From: a virus
Strand: one strand, 5' to 3'
DNA: 37,325 nucleotides
Virus record (IMG/VR): IMGVR_UViG_3300007522_000035
Location: 1-37,325 of that record
Part shown: positions 6,901 through 31,955 of the stretch, piece after piece
Layout: every line of letters begins with the position of its first letter
Numbering within the stretch: position 1 is the first letter of the stretch
Program-made: the position numbers and the translations under genes
Notes under the pieces: generated by a model
Databases searched by the model: none
What the model was told of the DNA's origin: nothing
What the model saw: only the letters and a program-made list of their open reading frames with translations

Positions 6901-7048
6901 ACTAAAACTTTCCGGAGCCTACTCCACAAAAATCACCCAGGCGTATCGGATATCATCCCTCTAACGACCCCGGTTCACTTTTTGCTACGCACTGCCTTTT
7001 TCCAACTTGATAAGAATCGGTCAGCAGTAGACTCCGGAAAGTTTTAGT
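6901..7048. repeat. 23-bp inverted repeat bounding a 148-bp segment
   Basis: The 23 bases at 6901-6923 and 7026-7048 are inverse complements with a single mismatch (core CTCCGGAAAGTTTTAGT). The 102 bp between them contain no gene I can support. The arrangement could be a small mobile unit with terminal inverted repeats, the ends of a duplicated tRNA-flanking sequence, or a long hairpin affecting transcription through the tRNA cluster. No target-site duplication is obvious. Confidence 0.75.
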
Positions 7049-9963: not shown

Positions 9964-10160
9964 CGGACATTCCTCCAATGTTCCTGCCACATATCATTCC
10001 AGTGATCCTGCGTTCGCTCGAAGCAGATATTACACTCCACCGTGTAATTCAGTTCCTCTTGCACATACTGAGTGTTCATCCGCAGCCTAGTCGCGCCGCG
10101 TGTACCGCAGGAACGGCATCGTGGACCGAAGATCCAGTTCCATAGTTTAGAAAGCGTCAC
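9960..10160 (-). CDS. Small zinc-ribbon protein, 66 aa
   Basis: A 66-aa protein with two cysteine pairs, CRSCG (about residue 15) and CNICF (about residue 43), a minimal zinc ribbon. It starts with GTG overlapping the previous stop (GTGA), and its own stop overlaps the helicase start, so it is tightly coupled to the SNF2 gene. Probably a nucleic-acid-binding accessory; function not known. Confidence 0.65.
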   Translation of the reverse strand: MTLSKLWNWIFGPRCRSCGTRGATRLRMNTQYVQEELNYTVECNICFERTQDHWNDMWQEHWRNVR

Positions 10161-10675
10161 TTCGTCGCCTCCAATAAATTATTCATCTTGCAGTTCAGCC
10201 AGTCACCATCCAGCACATTCACGCCGTGCGGCCACTCACCAGTCAGGTAAAACCATGCCAGTCTCTGCGCCATGTAAGTTGTTCCGAACAACTTAACGAC
10301 CAGCCGGCCACCCTCCACATGCGCCGCTTGCACATTGAAGAAACCATCTTCACCCTGCGATGAGAAACTCCCAAGCACAGAGTCATACTTCAGCGTGTTC
10401 CGTAAAAGCTCGTGGGTCAGTTCGCCCTGGAACTTTGTTCTTGCGCGTTCTTTGTCACAGACTTGAGACACTGCGAGACTTGATTCCACAGTCTGGTATT
10501 TTCTGTCGATACCAGTCATCAGTTCGACTAGACAATCATCAACTGCTGCGAGTTCATCTTCGTCTTCGATCCCTGTCATGCTCTTCAAACCCATGCGATG
10601 TATTTCAAGAAGTTGTCTAACGGCATTCAGTCCAACCAGCTTCAACTTCAACGCCTTCGTACGTTCACTTTCCAC
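10157..10675 (-). CDS. Degenerate HNH-family protein
   Basis: 172 aa from a GTG at 10675 that sits seven bases after AAGGAG; an upstream in-frame ATG at 10708 has no such site. The C-terminus (AQRLAWFYLTGEWPHGVNVLDGDW...MNNLLEAT) follows the phage HNH pattern HRLAW.Y.GEWP..IDH.NGD...N..NLREAT, but the first His is Gln and the central Asp-His is Asn-Val, so nuclease activity is unlikely. The N-terminal two-thirds is helical and unrecognised. It may be a co-opted DNA-binding relic of an HNH endonuclease. Confidence 0.65.
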   Translation of the reverse strand: MESERTKALKLKLVGLNAVRQLLEIHRMGLKSMTGIEDEDELAAVDDCLVELMTGIDRKYQTVESSLAVSQVCDKERARTKFQGELTHELLRNTLKYDSVLGSFSSQGEDGFFNVQAAHVEGGRLVVKLFGTTYMAQRLAWFYLTGEWPHGVNVLDGDWLNCKMNNLLEATK

Positions 10676-10904
10676 TGTAAATCTCCTTCGTAAACACTTC
10701 GAACACACGTAATATGTCAGCCTGATTTTCGACGCCGATCATCGCAGAACACTTCGACAAATTGATGTGGATCTCGGCTACGATCCTGTCCGGCAGTATC
10801 TCAACTACCATGCCGTTGCGACGGCCGAGGTTCTTGTAGAAGCACCCAGGAAAAGTTCCTGTGGTGAATCCCTGATCTTCCAGCCACTCTTTTGTGATCT
10901 TCAT
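10665..10904 (-). CDS. Hypothetical protein, 79 aa
   Basis: A compact mixed alpha/beta 79-aa protein (MKITKEWLEDQGF at the N-terminus; a strand-rich middle GMVVEILPDRIVAEIHI; a C-terminal helix ADILRVFEVF). Similar short proteins starting with a 'T.eWL...GF' helix occur in phage early regions. GGAG precedes the ATG by eight bases. The stop overlaps the GTG-started HNH-like gene by 11 nt. Function unknown. Confidence 0.65.
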   Translation of the reverse strand: MKITKEWLEDQGFTTGTFPGCFYKNLGRRNGMVVEILPDRIVAEIHINLSKCSAMIGVENQADILRVFEVFTKEIYSGK

Positions 10905-10948: not shown

Positions 10949-11191
10949 TCAAGACCTGCATCCACTGGCAGGTTTCGAGTATGATCTTCTCATCGCCGCG
11001 ATGAACGCCAGGTTCTTCTTGACCTGCTCAGCCTTCAGCGCCAGACGATCTTCTTTCCTCGCCACCGCCTTGGCGATCTGCTCGGGCGACGATCGAGACC
11101 GCAAAGCGAATCCAGATGTCGGCGCGGGCTTGGTCTCTGCGGAATTGATTGACATTGCTACGGCAATCATAATGTTTGTTAGGCCATTCAT
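10949..11191 (-). CDS. Hypothetical protein, 80 aa
   Basis: An 80-aa protein with a moderately hydrophobic N-terminus (MNGLTNIMIAVAMSINSAET) and a basic helical C-terminal half (KAVARKEDRLALKAEQVKKNLAFIAAMRR). Its start overlaps the CsrA-like gene's stop (ATGA), so the two are co-translated. No family recognised. Confidence 0.6.
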   Translation of the reverse strand: MNGLTNIMIAVAMSINSAETKPAPTSGFALRSRSSPEQIAKAVARKEDRLALKAEQVKKNLAFIAAMRRSYSKPASGCRS

Positions 11192-11475
11192 TTCGCCTTC
11201 ATCCTTTCAATAATCGCAGCCCGCTTCGGGACATGCGCCACAGGGATCACAACTTCTTGCAGTTTGGCAACCAAACTGTTCGCTGCGACATTCACAACAG
11301 CCTCGGGTGGGTCGAGGCTGATCGCATCCGGCCTGAGAATCACCCAGTCACGCGGAGCGTCGATTCCGATGCGAGCGGACTTGCCTCGCACGTCAACCAG
11401 CATCAACGAAATCACAGTCCCGTCAGGAGACTGGATAAATATCTTCTCGCTTAGATTGCGTTTTAGTACCAACAT
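11188..11475 (-). CDS. csrA: CsrA/RsmA-family RNA-binding translational regulator
   Basis: 95 aa. Residues 1-55 match CsrA: MLVLKRNLSEKIFI, a DGTVISLMLVDVRG strand pair, and RIGIDAPRDWVILRPD. CsrA dimers bind GGA motifs in mRNA leaders and block or stabilise translation. The RNA-contact positions Leu4 and Arg6 and the late Arg (here Arg48, after a small insertion relative to Escherichia coli Arg44) are kept. The C-terminal 40 residues are an extra helical tail. It sits in a coupled operon of small early genes, suggesting takeover or tuning of host and phage mRNA translation. Confidence 0.85.
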   Translation of the reverse strand: MLVLKRNLSEKIFIQSPDGTVISLMLVDVRGKSARIGIDAPRDWVILRPDAISLDPPEAVVNVAANSLVAKLQEVVIPVAHVPKRAAIIERMKAK

Positions 11476-17008: not shown

Positions 17009-17152
17009 TGGCGCGTACTCCTTCGGCTATAAAATACAGGGACCGGGGCCAAGAGTAACCATCCGAGCGAAATGATTCAAGGTTGTCTCTGAGAAATAAC
17101 GATATTTGTATTGTAGTTATTCTATGTTTGTGCTTACCATATAGGGGTGGTC
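17009..17152. promoter_or_regulatory. Divergent control region between the two early operons
   Basis: The 144 bp separate the minus-strand primase-polymerase from the first plus-strand small gene, so promoters for both early transcripts are expected here. It is AT-rich around 17094-17140 and holds an imperfect inverted repeat AATAAC...GTTATT (about 17095-17121), a possible operator. The TAGTTATTCT string in it recurs near 15228 and 25902. I cannot fix -10/-35 boxes confidently. Confidence 0.4.
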
Positions 17153-17251
17153 ATGTTGGAATACTTCGTAATTTCGTGTTTTAGTGTTTCAATGCTGATC
17201 TTTGGTTTGAATTTCTGGGATTGCTGGATGCTGATAAGGGAGAATCGATGA
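17153..17251 (+). CDS. 32-aa single-pass membrane peptide
   Basis: An ATG at 17153 opens a 32-codon frame whose product is almost all one hydrophobic helix (EYFVISCFSVSMLIFGLNFW) with a short charged tail (LIRENR). GGGG lies about six bases upstream, and its stop overlaps the next start as ATGA, the standard coupling in this operon. First gene of the plus-strand early block. Tiny phage membrane peptides often act on host envelope or protease targets, but nothing specific can be said. Confidence 0.55.
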   Translation: MLEYFVISCFSVSMLIFGLNFWDCWMLIRENR

Positions 17252-19130: not shown

Positions 19131-19361
19131 ATGATTCGTGCGAATCGTCAGACCGTACATTTATCGGATCATGCGGTAGCGCTTAGCAAGGATCTTCAGA
19201 TCGAGTTGGGCTGCGAGTCGATATCTGAGCTGATCGAGTGGCTGATTCTCTGCCAGCGACATTCCGTGGTCGATGCGCGAGCCCTGCTGGGTAAGCGGAG
19301 TAAGCGCGGGCGGCGATGGCCGGATGAAGGATCTGGTGTTGTGAATGGACTCGGTGAGTGA
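19131..19361 (+). CDS. Hypothetical protein, possible ribbon-helix-helix type
   Basis: 76 aa. The N-terminus (RQTVHLSDHAVALSKDLQIELGCESISELIEWLILCQRHS) has the strand then two-helix order seen in ribbon-helix-helix DNA-binding proteins, and the C-terminal part is basic (GKRSKRGRRWP). A small DNA-binding regulator is therefore possible. AAGG lies seven bases before the ATG. It is the last gene before a terminator. Confidence 0.5.
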   Translation: MIRANRQTVHLSDHAVALSKDLQIELGCESISELIEWLILCQRHSVVDARALLGKRSKRGRRWPDEGSGVVNGLGE

Positions 19362-19377
19362 TAGAATGCGGGCTGAA

Positions 19378-19433
19378 CGAGGTACGATCTCGGTCACTAA
19401 ACGAAAAATATCGGGGTAAAACCCGATCACTAA
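19378..19433 (+). ncRNA. Paired small hairpins, each followed by TCACTAA
   Basis: Two hairpins, CGAG-loop-CTCG (19378-19392) and ATCGGG-loop-CCCGAT (19410-19427), are each followed by TCACTAA, and the strong terminator comes next. A comparable pair precedes the terminator of the other HNH gene near 31.3-31.4 kb. This could be a conserved structured leader belonging to the HNH elements. Confidence 0.4.
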
Positions 19434-19434
19434 G

Positions 19435-19477
19435 CCGTCATTGTGGGAATCGTACTCCCATGATGGCGGTTTTTTTG
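19435..19477 (+). terminator. Strong intrinsic terminator before the NUMOD4/HNH gene
   Basis: A 14-bp stem (three G-U pairs) from 19435-19448 with 19456-19469 and a 7-nt loop, followed by eight T residues. It ends the 17-19 kb early operon 13 nt before the HNH gene's start codon, so that gene needs readthrough or its own promoter. Confidence 0.85.
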
Positions 19478-19489
19478 TGGAGTTTTGTT

Positions 19490-20023
19490 ATGAGTGATGA
19501 TGAAGAATACCCTGAGTTCAAAGATCTCGAAGCCTGGCCGGGGTATCGCGTCGGCCGCGATGGCTCGGTGTGGAGCCGCAAGAAGAATGATGAGTGGCGC
19601 AAAATGACACTCAGCACGAATATGAGCGGGCACATTATCGTCGGGCTCACGAAGGACAAGAAGATCTTCAGGCTCAATGTCGGCGTGCTTGTTATCACTG
19701 CTTTCAGAGGGGTCGCGTATCACAAGAATGATTATGTTTGCCTGCACTCGAATGGATTGCTCGAAGACTGCACAATCGACAATCTGATGTGGGGGTCGCT
19801 CTTTGATGCCCAGGAAATCAGAGAGGAACATAGTCTCGACAGGAAAACCCTGAAGAAGTCTGCCATAAAACTCACTGCTGACGATATTCTCGACATCCGG
19901 CTGAGATACGGCAGGGAACGGCAAAGCTACTTCTACATCGGCCGACAATACGGAATCACCGCTAAACAGGTAGTGAAGATCCTTAAAGAAAATAGATTCA
20001 TTCGACTTCCGGAGGAAACGTGA
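19490..20023 (+). CDS. NUMOD4-containing HNH homing-endonuclease-like protein
   Basis: 177 aa from ATG 19490, after GGAG. Residues 9-33 (EFKDLEAWPGYRVGRDGSVWSRK) are a NUMOD4 module. VCLHSNGLLEDCTIDNLMWGS (83-103) matches the second half of the HNH fold with His86 and Asn98, but the first His, expected in a VHRLVA.AF-type strand, is missing (RLNVGVLVITAF). The C-terminus (LTADDILDIRLRYG...GRQYGITAKQVVKIL) is a helix-turn-helix module. Nicking activity is uncertain; probably a free-standing homing element. It overlaps the PAPS-reductase-like start. Confidence 0.75.
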   Translation: MSDDEEYPEFKDLEAWPGYRVGRDGSVWSRKKNDEWRKMTLSTNMSGHIIVGLTKDKKIFRLNVGVLVITAFRGVAYHKNDYVCLHSNGLLEDCTIDNLMWGSLFDAQEIREEHSLDRKTLKKSAIKLTADDILDIRLRYGRERQSYFYIGRQYGITAKQVVKILKENRFIRLPEET

Positions 20024-21120: not shown

Positions 21121-23403
21121 ATGGTGACTCGTATAGTTGTAGGAATTGCCGGAAGTGGGAAAACCGCATTCGCGATGTCAAGAATCGAGCAGGCCCTTCG
21201 TGAGGGGGTCAGGTGGGATCAAATTGGCTTCGGGAGTTTCAGCCGGGCTGCGTGCCTGGAAGCGGCAGAAAGGGCGTCGAAGATAACTGGGGTATCTTCG
21301 GACAAACTTCAGAAAGAAGGCTTCTTCAGAACCGCTCATTCTGCTAGTCTGAGACTACTTGGTATCAACCCGAAGCTGATTCTGGATCATGACTCTGCTG
21401 ACGGGAAACGATTCCTCACGGAATGTCTCGGATCACAACGAGGCGGTGAGGTGGGGACTCTCGGACACCAAGTTGATAAGGCGATGAGCTGGTTCGATAC
21501 GGAAAGGGCGCGACTGACCCTCCCCCGGCGACCTGCGGCACCTGATTGTCGCGAGGACGGGCTAAAAGAACCAGATACACTCGCACTAGGGTTTGGTACA
21601 CTCGCACTAGAGTTTGCTAAAACAACTAGTGCATGTGGAAAACCCAGCAAAAACAGCCATAAAGGGGATTCCGGTACACTCGCACTAACCTTTATAGAGA
21701 AAACTTTTCAATCAGAAAATATTATTCGAATCCAAGCGCGCAGAAAAATTTATGAAAAGCCTAGTGCGAGTGTATCTTGTAGTGTAAATGAACCCCCTAT
21801 AGGCCATAAAGTCCAGCAAAATCGGCAATTCACGTCCTTACACCCCTTTTTTAATGAAAGTCTAGTGCGAGTGTACCAAAACACTAGTGCGAGTGTATCT
21901 GAAAACACTAGTGCGAGTGTAAACACTAGTGCGAGTGTAAACACTAGTGCGAGTGTAAACGATGAATGTTTGGACATGGTGTACAAATACCAAGCTCACA
22001 AGCGCGAGCATGACAGGTACGACTTCACCGACCTACTCTTCAGGTACGCCGGGATCGGCATAACGAAAGATCTCGAAATCTACTCAACCTACCCAGAAGG
22101 CTCAGTTCCACAGGAAGTGAAGATCTGGTTCTGGGACGAGCATCAGGATACGTCGGTGCTGTTGGACATGGTGACTCAGAGGCTCTCAGAGGACTGTCAG
22201 GACGTTTACATGCTCGGAGATGCATATCAGGCCGTCTACGGATTCAGTGGCTCTGATCACCGCGTTTTCAAGGCGAGGGAGAATGCCGCCAAGGACGAGG
22301 GGAACCGAATCCTCCTGAATAGATCGTGGCGGAATCCGCCACAGGTGTTAGAGTGGGGGGAGTCGGTGCTTCGCGAAGACAAGGCATACGAAGAAAGACA
22401 CCCATTCAGCGAAGTCTGCGACGGCAGCGTAGGAATGATGAGAACAGGACTGTTCCTGGAGAACCTCGAACGGCTCGTGGACACCGACACCCTGATTATC
22501 GCACGGACGTGGTTCGCGCTCGATTCGCTGAAGAGGCGACTGGATCAGATGTGCATTCCCTGGCGGTCATGTCAGGAAGAGCGGAAATCCCGCTGGGAAA
22601 GCCCCGTCAAGATCGCTTATACTTTGACAATGAGAGATCTGAAGGACGGGGCGAAGATCTCAGAGCAGGACTGGAGAAGGGTCACTGATACGCTGGGACA
22701 GAAGTTCGAAGGCAAGGAACTGTTCGAACGTGGCGTCAAAGCCAAGTGGAAGAAGATGTCTTGTTCGGGCGAGAACGTCAAAACGCTGGCGGATCTGAAG
22801 GAATGGGGTGCGACCGAGTGGTTCACTCAGTTCGTCCAGCAGGATAAGTGGCGGCTGGATACGGTGCTGCTGCTGGACGATGCCATCGAGAAGCACGGGA
22901 TCAGAGTCGTGAGGAATCCGGGGATTCGGATCGGTAGCTGTCACAGCGTCAAAGGAATGGAAGCAGAGAATGTTTTCTGTCTGGCGACCAGCTCAGAGCG
23001 GGCGTCGGGCGATGGAATCGACTTCTGGGAGGATCTGTTCCTGAAGTACGTTGCGATCACGCGGGCGAGCCGGCATTTCAGGGTGGTCGTTGACCCAGTG
23101 GACCATGCGAGAGGGAAGCGTCTATTCTTGCCCTGCCCTAAGGGGTTTTGGACTTTCGATGAGGAGTTCGTTGATGTCGGAGTCAGAAATACAGGCGAAG
23201 TTCCTGAAATGGTGTTCGGACAAGGATTGGATCTGGGTGTGCAAATATCCGGGAGGAACCTACGGCAAAGCGGGGACTCCGGACACACTGATGTCAGTGC
23301 TGGGGATCTTCCTGGCCATCGAGTTCAAGACGCAGACAGGGAAGCAGTCGGAGATTCAGAAGTACGAGCAGTTGAAGATTCGTATGAGTGGATCAATATC
23401 TGA
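21121..23403 (+). CDS. UvrD-like superfamily 1 DNA helicase with repeat-filled insertion
   Basis: 760 aa. Walker A GIAGSGKT (residues 8-15), then FGSFSRAACLEAAERA, FFRTAHSASLRLLG, DRYDFTDLLFRYAG, motif II FWDEHQDTS (Asp about 339), GDAYQAVYGFSGS, LNRSWRNPPQVLEWG and a late HSVKGMEAENVF and YVAITRASRHF, the UvrD/Rep order. Between the third and fourth of these, residues about 152-279 are a low-complexity insertion built from DTLALGF-type and NTSASV-type repeats (see the repeat entry). The last ~77 residues overlap the nuclease gene out of frame. Likely a replicative or recombination helicase. Confidence 0.9.
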   Translation: MVTRIVVGIAGSGKTAFAMSRIEQALREGVRWDQIGFGSFSRAACLEAAERASKITGVSSDKLQKEGFFRTAHSASLRLLGINPKLILDHDSADGKRFLTECLGSQRGGEVGTLGHQVDKAMSWFDTERARLTLPRRPAAPDCREDGLKEPDTLALGFGTLALEFAKTTSACGKPSKNSHKGDSGTLALTFIEKTFQSENIIRIQARRKIYEKPSASVSCSVNEPPIGHKVQQNRQFTSLHPFFNESLVRVYQNTSASVSENTSASVNTSASVNTSASVNDECLDMVYKYQAHKREHDRYDFTDLLFRYAGIGITKDLEIYSTYPEGSVPQEVKIWFWDEHQDTSVLLDMVTQRLSEDCQDVYMLGDAYQAVYGFSGSDHRVFKARENAAKDEGNRILLNRSWRNPPQVLEWGESVLREDKAYEERHPFSEVCDGSVGMMRTGLFLENLERLVDTDTLIIARTWFALDSLKRRLDQMCIPWRSCQEERKSRWESPVKIAYTLTMRDLKDGAKISEQDWRRVTDTLGQKFEGKELFERGVKAKWKKMSCSGENVKTLADLKEWGATEWFTQFVQQDKWRLDTVLLLDDAIEKHGIRVVRNPGIRIGSCHSVKGMEAENVFCLATSSERASGDGIDFWEDLFLKYVAITRASRHFRVVVDPVDHARGKRLFLPCPKGFWTFDEEFVDVGVRNTGEVPEMVFGQGLDLGVQISGRNLRQSGDSGHTDVSAGDLPGHRVQDADREAVGDSEVRAVEDSYEWINI
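21576..21957. repeat. Nine copies of a 14-bp motif in opposed orientations inside the helicase gene
   Basis: CTAGTGCGAGTGTA occurs six times on the plus strand (starting 21761, 21862, 21884, 21908, 21926, 21944; the last three exactly 18 bp apart). Its reverse complement occurs at 21576, 21597 (21 bp apart) and 21675, the last lacking its final base. A shortened copy lies at 21625. The minus-oriented copies are all on the left and the plus-oriented on the right, facing across an AT-rich stretch (about 21690-21760). Most spacings keep the helicase frame. Iteron-like; a replication-origin or regulator-binding role is possible. Confidence 0.9.
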
Positions 23404-24062: not shown

Positions 24063-24281
24063 ATGGAGCCCTATTTTCTTGCCGGGTTCGTGGCAGGAAT
24101 CAACATAGCCGATTCAATGAGTGATGTCGGAAACAGGTGGTTCGGTGGTTCGGTGGTTCGGTGGTTCGGTGGTTCGGTGCGAAGAATAAACTTTGCGCCG
24201 CCTCGCGGCCGCGTACCACAATGCGGCCCACAGGCCAGGGTACAACTGCAAATACGTCAATCGTGCAGTTCGACATTATGA
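24063..24281 (+). CDS. Doubtful short ORF crossing an 8-bp tandem repeat
   Basis: An open frame of 72 codons beginning MEPYFLAGFVAGINIADSMSD, which is protein-like for about 25 residues, then reads through the octamer repeat (RWFGGSVVRWFGG) and unconvincing sequence. No ribosome site is evident. Changes in octamer number would shift the frame. It may be a real short gene disrupted by the repeat, or chance. Confidence 0.25.
   Translation: MEPYFLAGFVAGINIADSMSDVGNRWFGGSVVRWFGGSVRRINFAPPRGRVPQCGPQARVQLQIRQSCSSTL
24136..24175 (+). repeat. Tandem repeat, 5 x GGTGGTTC
   Basis: Five perfect consecutive octamers followed by a partial GGT. Lies in the 361-bp interval (24041-24401) without a well-supported gene. 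Because the unit is not a multiple of three, copy-number change would switch reading frame in any gene crossing it. Confidence 0.9.
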
Positions 24282-24401: not shown

Positions 24402-24902
24402 ATGGAATGCAGTATCGATGATCTAAGGCGGATGTTCAGTTACGACCCGGAAACAGGCGACATCACTCGTCTTGTGACTGTGAGCTGGAACGCTGTTGCT
24501 GGAAGCGTGGCTGGTCATGACAGTCGCAGTAGAAACACGAGCTACAGACGTTTGACGATTAACGGAAGGCAAGTAGGCTGCCACAGAGTTGCTTGGGCAT
24601 TGTTTTATGGTGAATGGCCGAAGGATCAGATTGACCATAAAGACAGGAATGGCCTGAACAATAGGATCGCGAACCTCCGGGAGTCGAACCAAACACTGAA
24701 CCAGAGGAACCAGAGAAGAAACGTGAATAACAAGACTGGTTTCCGTGGAGTCTCATGGCATAAAGGAAGACGCGGATGGCAGGCTGCGATATACATGTCG
24801 AGGAAGAAAATTCACCTCGGAGTGTTCAAGACGATCCCAGAAGCCGCTGCTGCTCGCGCCGCCGCTGAGATGAAATACTGGGGCCACACTTCGGATAACT
24901 GA
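24402..24902 (+). CDS. HNH endonuclease with C-terminal AP2 DNA-binding domain
   Basis: 166 aa; AGGAGG eight bases before the ATG. Intact HNH: CHRVAWALFYGEWPKDQIDHKDRNG...NNRIANLRESN with His61, Asp78-His79 and Asn87/Asn91. An AP2/ERF domain follows (GFRGVSWHKGRRGWQAAIYMSRKKIHLGVFKTIPEAAAAR, residues 113-152). This is the usual free-standing phage homing endonuclease plan, cutting related genomes and spreading itself. Its stop lies 1 nt before the first of three tandem-repeat arrays. Confidence 0.9.
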   Translation: MECSIDDLRRMFSYDPETGDITRLVTVSWNAVAGSVAGHDSRSRNTSYRRLTINGRQVGCHRVAWALFYGEWPKDQIDHKDRNGLNNRIANLRESNQTLNQRNQRRNVNNKTGFRGVSWHKGRRGWQAAIYMSRKKIHLGVFKTIPEAAAARAAAEMKYWGHTSDN

Positions 24903-24903
24903 A

Positions 24904-25015
24904 CCGCGCTCCCGCTGCTCGCCGCGCTCCCGCTGCCGAGCCGCGCTCCCGCTGCCGAGCCGCGCTCCCGCTGCTCGCCGCGCTCCCGCTGCCGAGCCGC
25001 GCTCCCGCTGCCGAG
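24904..25015. repeat. GC-rich tandem array, six 18/19-bp units
   Basis: Units CCGCGCTCCCGCTGCTCG (18) and CCGCGCTCCCGCTGCCGAG (19) in the order 18-19-19-18-19-19, i.e. two perfect 56-bp superunits. Starts directly after the HNH-AP2 stop codon. Non-coding as far as I can tell; minus-strand frames through it are pure repeat. Confidence 0.95.
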
Positions 25016-25030
25016 CCATGCCCCAGGATT

Positions 25031-25110
25031 CGGCGCCGAAAAACATCGGCGCCGAAAAACATCGGCGCCGAAAAACATCGGCGCCGAAAAACATCGGCGC
25101 CGAAAAACAT
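25031..25110. repeat. Tandem array, five 16-bp units with GGCGCC palindrome
   Basis: Five perfect copies of CGGCGCCGAAAAACAT. Each contains the palindrome CGGCGCCG followed by an A-tract, which makes regularly phased GC palindromes and A-tracts. The GCGCCGAAAA core is shared with another array at 29100-29191. Confidence 0.95.
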
Positions 25111-25185
25111 CGTCCCGACAACTATTGTTCCGACAACTATCGTCCCGACAACTATTGTTCCGACAACTATTGTTCCGACAACTAT
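25111..25185. repeat. Tandem array, five 15-bp units containing CCGACAACTAT
   Basis: Five 15-bp units alternating CGTCCCGACAACTAT and TGTTCCGACAACTAT, directly abutting the previous array. The CCGACAACTA core also occurs in each of the three leader sequences that follow (just before the ribosome site). Ends 28 bp before the first promoter cassette. Confidence 0.95.
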
Positions 25186-25212
25186 TGTTGCTAGCCGATC
25201 GGATGAGCGGAC

Positions 25213-25316
25213 TATTCTTACAATTCTTCTACATTTAGCATTGACACTATTGACCAGCTTGCTAAGATGACGATATGTCAAGCATTCAACCCGACAACTA
25301 ACAAGGAGAAACGACG
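25213..25316 (+). promoter_or_regulatory. Promoter-leader cassette, copy 1, with 8-codon leader frame
   Basis: TTGACA (25241) and TAAGAT (25263) with a 16-nt spacer, a good sigma70 promoter. The expected +1 coincides with the A of an ATG at 25275 that opens MSSIQPDN-stop (25275-25301), so this frame could be translated leaderless. The ribosome site AAGGAG follows at 25303, nine bases before the gene's ATG. About 100 bp, nearly identical to copies 2 and 3. Confidence 0.85.
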
Positions 25317-25538
25317 ATGGTTCAAGTGCGGTTTATGAATGGAAAAATTACGCGTTTTCCAGGGGCAAAGAGGGCTGCCAAATCTGCAGGTTATCCTGAT
25401 GTTTTCACTTATCTGAGGTCAACAGGGCAGGTCGATTGCTGTTGTGAAGAAATTTCGGACGAAGAAAAAAATGAACAGTTATTAGCAGACCAGGCGAAAA
25501 GACAAATCGCAAGGCATGTTTTACGGCGATTACAATGA
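25317..25538 (+). CDS. Small protein driven by cassette copy 1, 73 aa
   Basis: 73 aa: MVQVRFMNGKITRFPGAKRAAKSAGYPDVFTYLRSTGQVDCCCEEISDEE..., basic N-terminal half, a CCC triplet, acidic then basic helical end. No family recognised. Start fixed by AAGGAG nine bases upstream. It has its own promoter and leader identical to those of two unrelated neighbours. Confidence 0.7.
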   Translation: MVQVRFMNGKITRFPGAKRAAKSAGYPDVFTYLRSTGQVDCCCEEISDEEKNEQLLADQAKRQIARHVLRRLQ

Positions 25539-25601
25539 ATACGTAGTCGTCTAAAAATGGCGACGGAACGAAGTGGCTGAGAGTTAATTTATATTTATTT
25601 T

Positions 25602-25687
25602 ACATTTAGCATTGACACTATTGACCAGCTTGCTAAGATGACGATATGTCAAGCATTCAACCCGACAACTAACAAGGAGAAACGACG
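25602..25687 (+). promoter_or_regulatory. Promoter-leader cassette, copy 2
   Basis: Same TTGACA (25612), TAAGAT (25634), leaderless MSSIQPDN frame (25646-25672), CCGACAACTA and AAGGAG elements as copy 1. The sequence diverges upstream of the TACATTTAGC just before the -35 box, which marks the conserved unit as roughly 85 bp of promoter plus leader. Confidence 0.85.
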
Positions 25688-25903
25688 ATGCAAACAGTAA
25701 CTGCAGAAGAGACTTACATAATGCGCGGTCGAATAGCCACGCGGTGCACCTTAGTAGACATAGAGTCTACGTACAATCGGAACGGAGAACTGGTTAAAAC
25801 AGAGCAAGTCGTGGCTTACGAGTGCCAGGGACAGATAGTACTGTCTAGGTGTCAGGAATCTTCAATACTCCATGGAAACCCTGGGTTTCATACTCCCGGA
25901 TAG
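25688..25903 (+). CDS. Small protein driven by cassette copy 2, 71 aa
   Basis: 71 aa, beta-rich (TYIMRGRIATRCTLVDIESTYNRNGELVKTEQVVAYECQGQIVLSRC) with three Cys. Reads like a small beta-barrel; no family recognised. Unrelated in sequence to the products of copies 1 and 3 although expressed from the same leader. Confidence 0.7.
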   Translation: MQTVTAEETYIMRGRIATRCTLVDIESTYNRNGELVKTEQVVAYECQGQIVLSRCQESSILHGNPGFHTPG

Positions 25904-25904
25904 T

Positions 25905-26008
25905 TATTCTTACAATTCTTCTACATTTAGCATTGACACTATTGACCAGCTTGCTAAGATGACGATATGTCAAGCATTCAACCCGACAACTAACAAGGAG
26001 AAACGAAA
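25905..26008 (+). promoter_or_regulatory. Promoter-leader cassette, copy 3
   Basis: TTGACA (25933), TAAGAT (25955), leaderless MSSIQPDN frame (25967-25993) and AAGGAG, matching copy 1 over about 100 bp including the upstream TTCTTACAATTCTTC stretch that copy 2 lacks. Confidence 0.85.
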
Positions 26009-26224
26009 ATGAACATTAGGGAACTTGCGGACAAGGTACGTGACCTGAAAACAGTGCGACGGGAGGAACTTTCCGAAGGCATGGAATTGAGCCAATTTGA
26101 TGCTTTTGTTGGGGTATTAGAGAGAAGTGGTTTAGTGTGGACGTCTGATAGAATGATTGGATGGAACTTACCAGATAGTTTTCCATGCTCTCAGGAATTC
26201 ATTCTCGCGGAGTCTCAGCGATGA
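26009..26224 (+). CDS. Small helical protein driven by cassette copy 3, 71 aa
   Basis: 71 aa: MNIRELADKVRDLKTVRREELSEGMELSQFDAFVGVLERSGLVWTSDRMIGWNLPD..., possibly a small winged-helix-like fold (helix, helix, short hairpin), but no family is recognised. The stop overlaps the next start (ATGA), so cassette 3 drives at least three genes. Confidence 0.7.
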   Translation: MNIRELADKVRDLKTVRREELSEGMELSQFDAFVGVLERSGLVWTSDRMIGWNLPDSFPCSQEFILAESQR

Positions 26225-29099: not shown

Positions 29100-29191
29100 G
29101 CGCCGAAAAGCGCCGAAAACGATGCAAGCGCCGAAAAGCGCCGAAAACGATGCAATCGCCGAAAACGCCGAAAAGCGCCGAAAAGCGCCGA
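29100..29191. repeat. Tandem repeats of GCGCCGAAAA, with a 28-bp composite unit
   Basis: Seven full or near-full GCGCCGAAAA units plus a partial one. The first two composite units (two decamers plus CGATGCAA) are perfect 28-bp copies at 29100-29127 and 29128-29155; later units are less regular. The core is the same as in the array at 25031-25110. It fills most of the 241-bp gap before the next gene; the remainder (29192-29296) is AT-rich and shows nothing I can name. Confidence 0.9.
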
Positions 29192-31285: not shown

Positions 31286-31397
31286 CTTTCGCGGCCGTTG
31301 AAGATTGACGGATCGATGAATCTTTGTGATGATGTGGGCATCGCCTGAATGCAAGACAGGCAAAAAGAAATCTTCGGGGGTGACCCTGATTTTTGAA

Positions 31398-31436
31398 CCA
31401 CAGTGTGATGCTTGCATCGTCGCACTGTGGTTTTTT
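31398..31436 (+). terminator. Strong terminator before the second HNH-AP2 gene
   Basis: CCACAGTG/CACTGTGG (8 bp) with an inner GATG/CATC pair, followed by six T residues, 15 nt before the ATG at 31452. Same arrangement as at 19435-19477: terminator, T-run, GTGGAG ribosome site, HNH start. Smaller hairpins precede it around 31347-31390. Confidence 0.85.
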
Positions 31437-31451
31437 CGTGGAGTGTTTGTG

Positions 31452-31955
31452 ATGGCAGAGATCACGCTTGAAGTGGCTAACAGAGAGATCGAATACGATC
31501 CATTGACTGGTCTTGTTCGAAGAAAAGTTATTCGGACTCGCGCAGTTTCCGGGTGGCAGTTGGGAACAGAAGACCACATAAAAGAACATGTCTACCTAAA
31601 GATCAGGATCATGGGTAAATTCATATCCATCCATAGGCTTGCGTTTCTTTTGGAAACGGGAGTAATGCCACCAGCCATGGTCGATCATGAAAATGGAAAC
31701 ACGATGGACAATAAGCGTTCGAACCTGCGGCTGGCCACGCCACAGATGAATCAAAGAAACAAGAAATTCCACAAAAACAACACCTCCGGCGCGATGGGTG
31801 TTAGCTTAGAGCATGGCAGATACAGGGCAAGAATCAGGGATGATGCCGGGATACTGAATGTAGGTTCGTTCGACACGCTGGAAGAAGCCGCCATCGCACG
31901 TAAAGCGGCAGAGATCCACTATGGATACCACCCGAACCACGGAAGGAAATCCTGA
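31452..31955 (+). CDS. HNH endonuclease with C-terminal AP2 domain
   Basis: 167 aa from ATG 31452. HNH: IHRLAFLLETGVMPPAMVDHENGNTMDNKRSNLRLAT with His61, Asp78-His79, Asn87 and Asn91; AP2-type domain from about residue 112 (SGAMGVSLEHGRYRARIRDDAGILNVGSFDTLEEAAIAR). An upstream extension of 42 codons exists but spans the terminator and is not used. It sits between the early operon and the terminase, with a TGATG overlap onto the terminase, a classic homing-endonuclease insertion point. Confidence 0.9.
   Translation: MAEITLEVANREIEYDPLTGLVRRKVIRTRAVSGWQLGTEDHIKEHVYLKIRIMGKFISIHRLAFLLETGVMPPAMVDHENGNTMDNKRSNLRLATPQMNQRNKKFHKNNTSGAMGVSLEHGRYRARIRDDAGILNVGSFDTLEEAAIARKAAEIHYGYHPNHGRKS

Follow-up and report, generated by a model that had tools for sequence, protein, structure and literature searches.

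A gene for a UvrD-like SF1 DNA helicase in an uncultured tailed phage carries an array of short, facing sites of foreign-looking composition, arranged around a weak, AT-rich core and accompanied by a DnaA box. As read from the sequence, this repeat block is an in-frame insertion of about 130 residues that leaves the helicase motifs in place, and the conservation of its sites appears to act on the DNA. We tentatively explain the block as an initiator-binding iteron platform and, as such, probably a replication origin. In the proposed mechanism, a cluster of iterons for a sequence-specific DNA-binding protein has been placed in frame in a loop of the SF1 helicase. The facing 19-bp sites on the two sides of the AT-rich core would be occupied by the initiator; melting of the core would follow, possibly with the participation of DnaA at its one box, and the replication machinery would then be loaded at the melted core. 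The helicase would be produced with a flexible loop of ~130 residues, which would be tolerated.

The window (the whole stretch of 37,325 nucleotides that was analyzed; IMG/VR record IMGVR_UViG_3300007522_000035) also includes genes for a terminase, a portal protein, a Prim-Pol primase and a SNF2-type helicase, as well as tRNAs. At least four genes for HNH-type, homing-like endonucleases are scattered over it (10157-10708, 19358-20023, 24402-24902 and 31326-31955), and a phage-encoded CsrA-like translational regulator (PF02599, E 7.6e-9) lies on the minus strand at 11188-11475. Further repeats follow the helicase gene: a perfect 8-bp tandem repeat, GGTGGTTC, in 5.5 copies (24136-24179); back-to-back tandem arrays of a 19-mer, the 16-mer TCGGCGCCGAAAAACA and the 15-mer CCGACAACTATTGTT (24904-25189); a 107-nt sequence present three times (25213-25319, 25584-25690 and 25905-26011; 93-98% alike), each copy directly before a small ORF; and a GCGCCGAAAA-type array (29100-29191). 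The 107-nt copies carry TTGAC-like promoter elements and an AAGGAG ribosome-binding site, i.e., they constitute a repeated promoter-leader cassette. In L014, a second contig of this virus (metagenome 3300032435), the 16-mer array is longer by one unit; L014 is identical to the window over 21610-21957 and stops at the array within the helicase gene, as assemblies commonly do at repeats.

Table 1. Helicase gene and features of the repeat block within it (positions in the window).
Feature	Position	Strand	Basis
UvrD/Rep-like SF1 DNA helicase gene, 760 aa, insertion host	21121..23403	+	PF00580 E 1.3e-17; phrog_1967 DNA helicase E 1.1e-37
In-frame insertion, ~396 nt / 132 aa (approximate limits)	21570..21966	+	Walker A-B spacing and deletion scan
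Left arm of 40-bp inverted repeat, with sites A and B	21572..21611	.	95% identical inverted match to 21861-21901
Site A, exact motif	21576..21589	-	motif search; 19-bp site alignment
Site B, exact motif	21597..21610	-	motif search; 19-bp site alignment
Degenerate tenth copy, 3 mismatches	21626..21639	+	motif search
DnaA box TTTTCCACA, sole TTWTNCACA match in window	21634..21642	-	pattern search
Site C, one mismatch, nested partner of D	21675..21688	-	motif search; folding; 19-bp site alignment
AT-rich core, candidate unwinding element	21686..21760	.	duplex stability; GC 35-37%
Site D, exact motif	21761..21774	+	motif search; 19-bp site alignment
Right arm of 40-bp inverted repeat, with sites E and F	21861..21901	.	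inverted match to left arm
Site E, exact motif, other frame (LVRVY)	21862..21875	+	translation
Site F, exact motif	21884..21897	+	motif search; 19-bp site alignment
Sites G, H and I (21908, 21926, 21944), perfect 18-bp tandem, outside palindrome	21903..21960	+	Tandem Repeats Finder, 3.2 copies, 100% matches

Nine copies of the motif CTAGTGCGAGTGTA, eight of them exact and the other with one mismatch, fall within 382 bp (21576-21957) of the 37-kb window searched; elsewhere in the window nothing comes closer to it than three mismatches, and none of 100 shuffled sequences matched this copy count. The number of nine copies given in the preliminary description is therefore retained, but a degenerate tenth copy, CTAGTGCATGTGGA, is to be added, and the unit is 19 bp rather than 14 bp, as AAA five to three bases upstream is common to all nine copies (19-bp site, AAANNYTAGTGCGAGTGTA). 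Three minus-oriented copies (sites A-C) are located to the left of the AT-rich core and six plus-oriented copies (sites D-I) to the right, as had been noted, whereas the degenerate copy is plus-oriented and yet lies in the left block, so that the mirror rule is imperfect. The facing blocks also go beyond a simple mirror image: sites A and B on one side and sites E and F on the other, spacers included, form a 40-bp inverted repeat with 95% identity, within which C and D are the innermost of the nested pairs A-F, B-E and C-D. Sites G-I look like a later, frame-preserving amplification.

Spacings of 21, 78, 24, 18 and 18 between copies keep the reading frame, as had been claimed for those of 18 and 21, whereas spacings of 101 and 22 break it. 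The minus copies are translated as TLAL and most plus copies as SASV, but site E is read as LVRVY because neither 101 nor 22 is divisible by three. As identical DNA is thus read as TLAL, SASV and LVRVY, the conservation is, on the evidence of these translations, one of DNA and not of peptide. In the paired arms, differences are found at 0 of 28 core positions and at 7 of 21 spacer positions (Fisher P 0.0014), a result that is indicative, given that the alignment of the arms is slightly longer than 40 bp, that the limits were set by eye and that the positions are not fully independent. These patterns suggest that the sites very probably function as DNA, whichever protein binds them.

Several lines of evidence point to insertion of the block into a pre-existing helicase gene. 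The distance from Walker A to Walker B is 331 residues, compared with 174-196 residues in 76 viral homologues (from IMG/VR and GenBank phages), and the insert is missing from every one of these 76. When segments were removed in silico and the remainder was scored against the homologue profile, the top score was obtained with 132 residues (~396 nt) taken out; same-length removals with shifted limits score nearly equally, and the length is therefore better fixed than the limits. As the repeats span 382 bp, in agreement with this length, the insertion is the repeat block itself. Outside it, all helicase motifs are in place, consistent with the preliminary view of an SF1 helicase that was entered in frame without being broken. 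The case that had been named as contrary evidence, homologues with the same peptide encoded by other DNA, does not arise, as no examined homologue has the insert.

The composition and codon usage of the insert are foreign to the helicase gene: its codon score is -0.17, compared with +0.025 to +0.23 for the native helicase, which places it outside the codon signature of the phage. Its reading frame is open, in contrast to the two remaining forward frames, in which stop codons abound. Disorder is predicted over most of its length. In an AlphaFold model (A3, 63 sequences), most of the helicase core has pLDDT values of ~85-97 and residues 131-185, 213-239 and 262-274 of the insert region have values below 50; the input alignment is unreliable here, with homologue residues smeared into the insert, so that a helix modeled at 184-205 is not trustworthy. 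These predictions are consistent with the insert being a tolerated loop.

The anatomy of an iteron origin is recognizable in the block, which combines nine sites of 19 bp within a span of 382 bp with an adjacent, easily melted region. Origins of this kind have several near-identical sites of about 17-22 bp close together, and 19 bp is a typical iteron length that we count for the origin reading. The AT-rich core noted previously has a GC content of 35-37% per 100 bp, compared with ~50-60% around it; the 40-bp duplex that starts at 21686 is the second least stable in the window, and at scales of 62-150 bp the core ranks sixth. A DnaA box is common, although not universal, in iteron origins. The one in the block is only suggestive as an origin sign, the chance of at least one match in a sequence of the same composition being 0.07. 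Counted against an origin are also the lack of a recognized initiator gene among the scanned proteins (Pfam and PHROGs; several early proteins belong to no family, and the contig is part of a genome), the lack of a relative with the same layout among the sequences searched, and the cumulative GC skew. The minimum of the latter is at ~17.0 kb, away from the array, and coincides with a switch of gene orientation; as a pointer to an origin elsewhere it is weak evidence. The gap between divergent gene blocks at 17009-17220, which combines this minimum with one of the least stable duplexes of the window, is a rival place for an origin. From the sites, the core and the box together, we infer that a protein would bind the array, that this protein would be an initiator and that replication would start there. 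The earlier proposal of an origin is thus borne out in part, by the sites and the meltable core and suggestively by the DnaA box, with no initiator gene recognized among the scanned proteins and the skew turning at ~17.0 kb.

The long nested inverted repeat is not a usual part of iteron origins; it is in keeping with a mobile palindrome, the alternative that had been raised in the preliminary description. The block might be a palindromic mobile element that entered the gene in frame and whose product, a disordered loop, is tolerated. It would be either similar to the Rickettsia palindromic elements (RPEs) or a non-autonomous transposon whose ends each contain several transposase sites, and the motif would be a transposase site. 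Terminal inverted repeats are present, in the form of the 40-bp arms and the nested pairs, the composition and codon usage are foreign, the insertion is clean and missing from homologues, and RPEs are known to insert in frame into enzyme genes (PMC10969869). However, the element occurs once in the window, searches of IMG/VR, GTDB genomes, phages and plasmids gave no further copy, the palindrome does not include sites G-I, which lie beyond one arm, the conservation of cores over spacers suggests that the sites are still under selection, and the weak AT-rich core is left unexplained. Nor was a convincing flanking repeat found around the insertion, the best candidates for a target-site duplication being 4-5 bp long and due to the motif itself or to chance. 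Such a duplication is usual for miniature inverted-repeat elements (MITEs). Overall, we regard a mobile palindrome as somewhat unlikely, although it is the chief competitor of the origin. The facing multi-site ends also prompted a comparison with Tn7/Mu-like transposon ends, which were rejected, as reading of the array edges reveals no TG...CA termini and there is no target duplication. Elsewhere in the window, a 148-bp stretch between 23-bp inverted repeats (96%) adjoins a tRNA-Thr gene (6901-7048) and is possibly a second palindromic element.

Dense, conserved, asymmetric sites in facing blocks are also the form of multi-operator or centromere arrays, and the block might serve a repressor, an activator or a centromere-binding protein that controls transcription of the replication operon or segregates a plasmid-like prophage. 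Such a platform is improbable: the sites occupy the middle of a gene rather than a promoter region, no copies are found elsewhere, unlike dispersed operators, and neither a recognized repressor nor a ParA/ParB-like protein is present among the scanned proteins of this partial genome, which speaks against the partition function suggested earlier. A packaging (pac) site was set aside on location alone, the array being 10 kb from the large terminase gene. A role at the level of RNA, in which a long hairpin in the mRNA would slow or regulate translation of the helicase, might be suggested by the folding of the block (z-score -9.1 as RNA); this folding is due to the inverted repeats and is by itself no sign of RNA function, being equally extreme for DNA (-10.3). 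As sites G-I are unnecessary for a hairpin, the block matches no Rfam family and the spacers of the paired arms differ without compensation, this role is very unlikely. Least credible is a peptide repeat under protein selection (a TSASVN-type linker, with the DNA repeats as a by-product of tandem duplication): sites F-I do encode TSASVN-type peptides in tandem, and three of them (G-I) repeat perfectly every 18 bp, but the inverted and other-frame copies keep the DNA and change the peptide, and the insert has no codon signature and is mostly predicted to be disordered.

A search of IMG/VR with the exact 14-mer returned 42 stretches, and a cluster of exact copies was found only in L014, i.e., in the same virus; the other matches are single exact copies, a few of them with weak neighbors of 1-3 mismatches in repetitive genes. 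Two candidates from a search with a tandem 11-mer (L051 and L052) proved unrelated, being an intergenic duplicate and an SPSASVSPS repeat protein. In GTDB genomes, the tandem pattern had no matches and the 19-bp pattern had 11 single, unclustered ones, and blastn of the block against phages and plasmids gave no meaningful match. Searches for sister phages by way of the helicase, the helicase motif pattern, PAPS reductase and the primase led to the same virus only. The terminase yielded three near-identical contigs (L061, L062 and L064) and a relative at 77% identity (L063) that ends short of the helicase. As far as seen, the motif is private to this lineage, which fits a co-evolving pair of initiator and site as well as a rare invader from an unsampled host.

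If the block is an origin, phages can put a replicator inside an enzyme gene other than that of the initiator, DNA and protein constraints are overlaid on one 0.4-kb block, and an uncultured phage lineage has an exact, testable origin. Should it instead be an invader, a large palindromic element is tolerated in frame by a viral enzyme, and the RPE phenomenon would extend to phages. Either way, conserved DNA is hidden in a reading frame, where an annotation pipeline would miss it and record a helicase containing repeats.

In archaeal origins with facing ORB elements, sites face each other around an unwinding element. This is a likeness of layout only, as the genes of the tailed phage described here are of bacterial type. 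In theta plasmids (Rep_3-type and similar ones), the iterons of the origin are mostly direct repeats and intergenic, beside rep. The block appears to resemble such origins in its ~19-bp sites, AT-rich melting region and DnaA box, and to be unlike them in that no Rep protein was found among the scanned proteins. PARCEL repeats are likewise palindromic and located within reading frames, and in them a 25-residue amphipathic peptide is conserved in tandem (PMC2996958); a conserved peptide repeat of this type is not seen in the block, where the DNA is kept and one motif gives three different peptides. RPEs and intragenic MITEs share with the block palindromic DNA that is in frame in an enzyme gene and translated (PMC10969869). 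RPEs are ~150 bp long and present in many copies, whereas the block is ~390 bp long, occurs in a single copy with repeated internal sites and has no relative in the databases searched.

The iterons of lambda are ~18-19 bp long. The block resembles a lambda-type origin in gene O in having iterons of about this length, with an AT-rich tract alongside, inside a replication gene in which they are translated and tolerated. In lambdoid phages, iterons and an AT-rich tract lie in the middle of gene O, and in Stx phages two more iterons add 13 residues to the O protein (PMC7466680). In lambda, the iterons form a single block to one side of the AT tract, and the gene is that of the initiator itself, whereas here two facing blocks enclose the core, in the gene of an SF1 helicase. 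By analogy, the logic of a lambda-type origin would cover the features of the block except for the long nested inverted repeat. It is conceivable, although doubtful, that a facing-iteron origin in a helicase loop makes origin and helicase one genetic unit, the principle of an origin within gene O having been reached independently in another gene, the layout being one that would suit loading in both directions.
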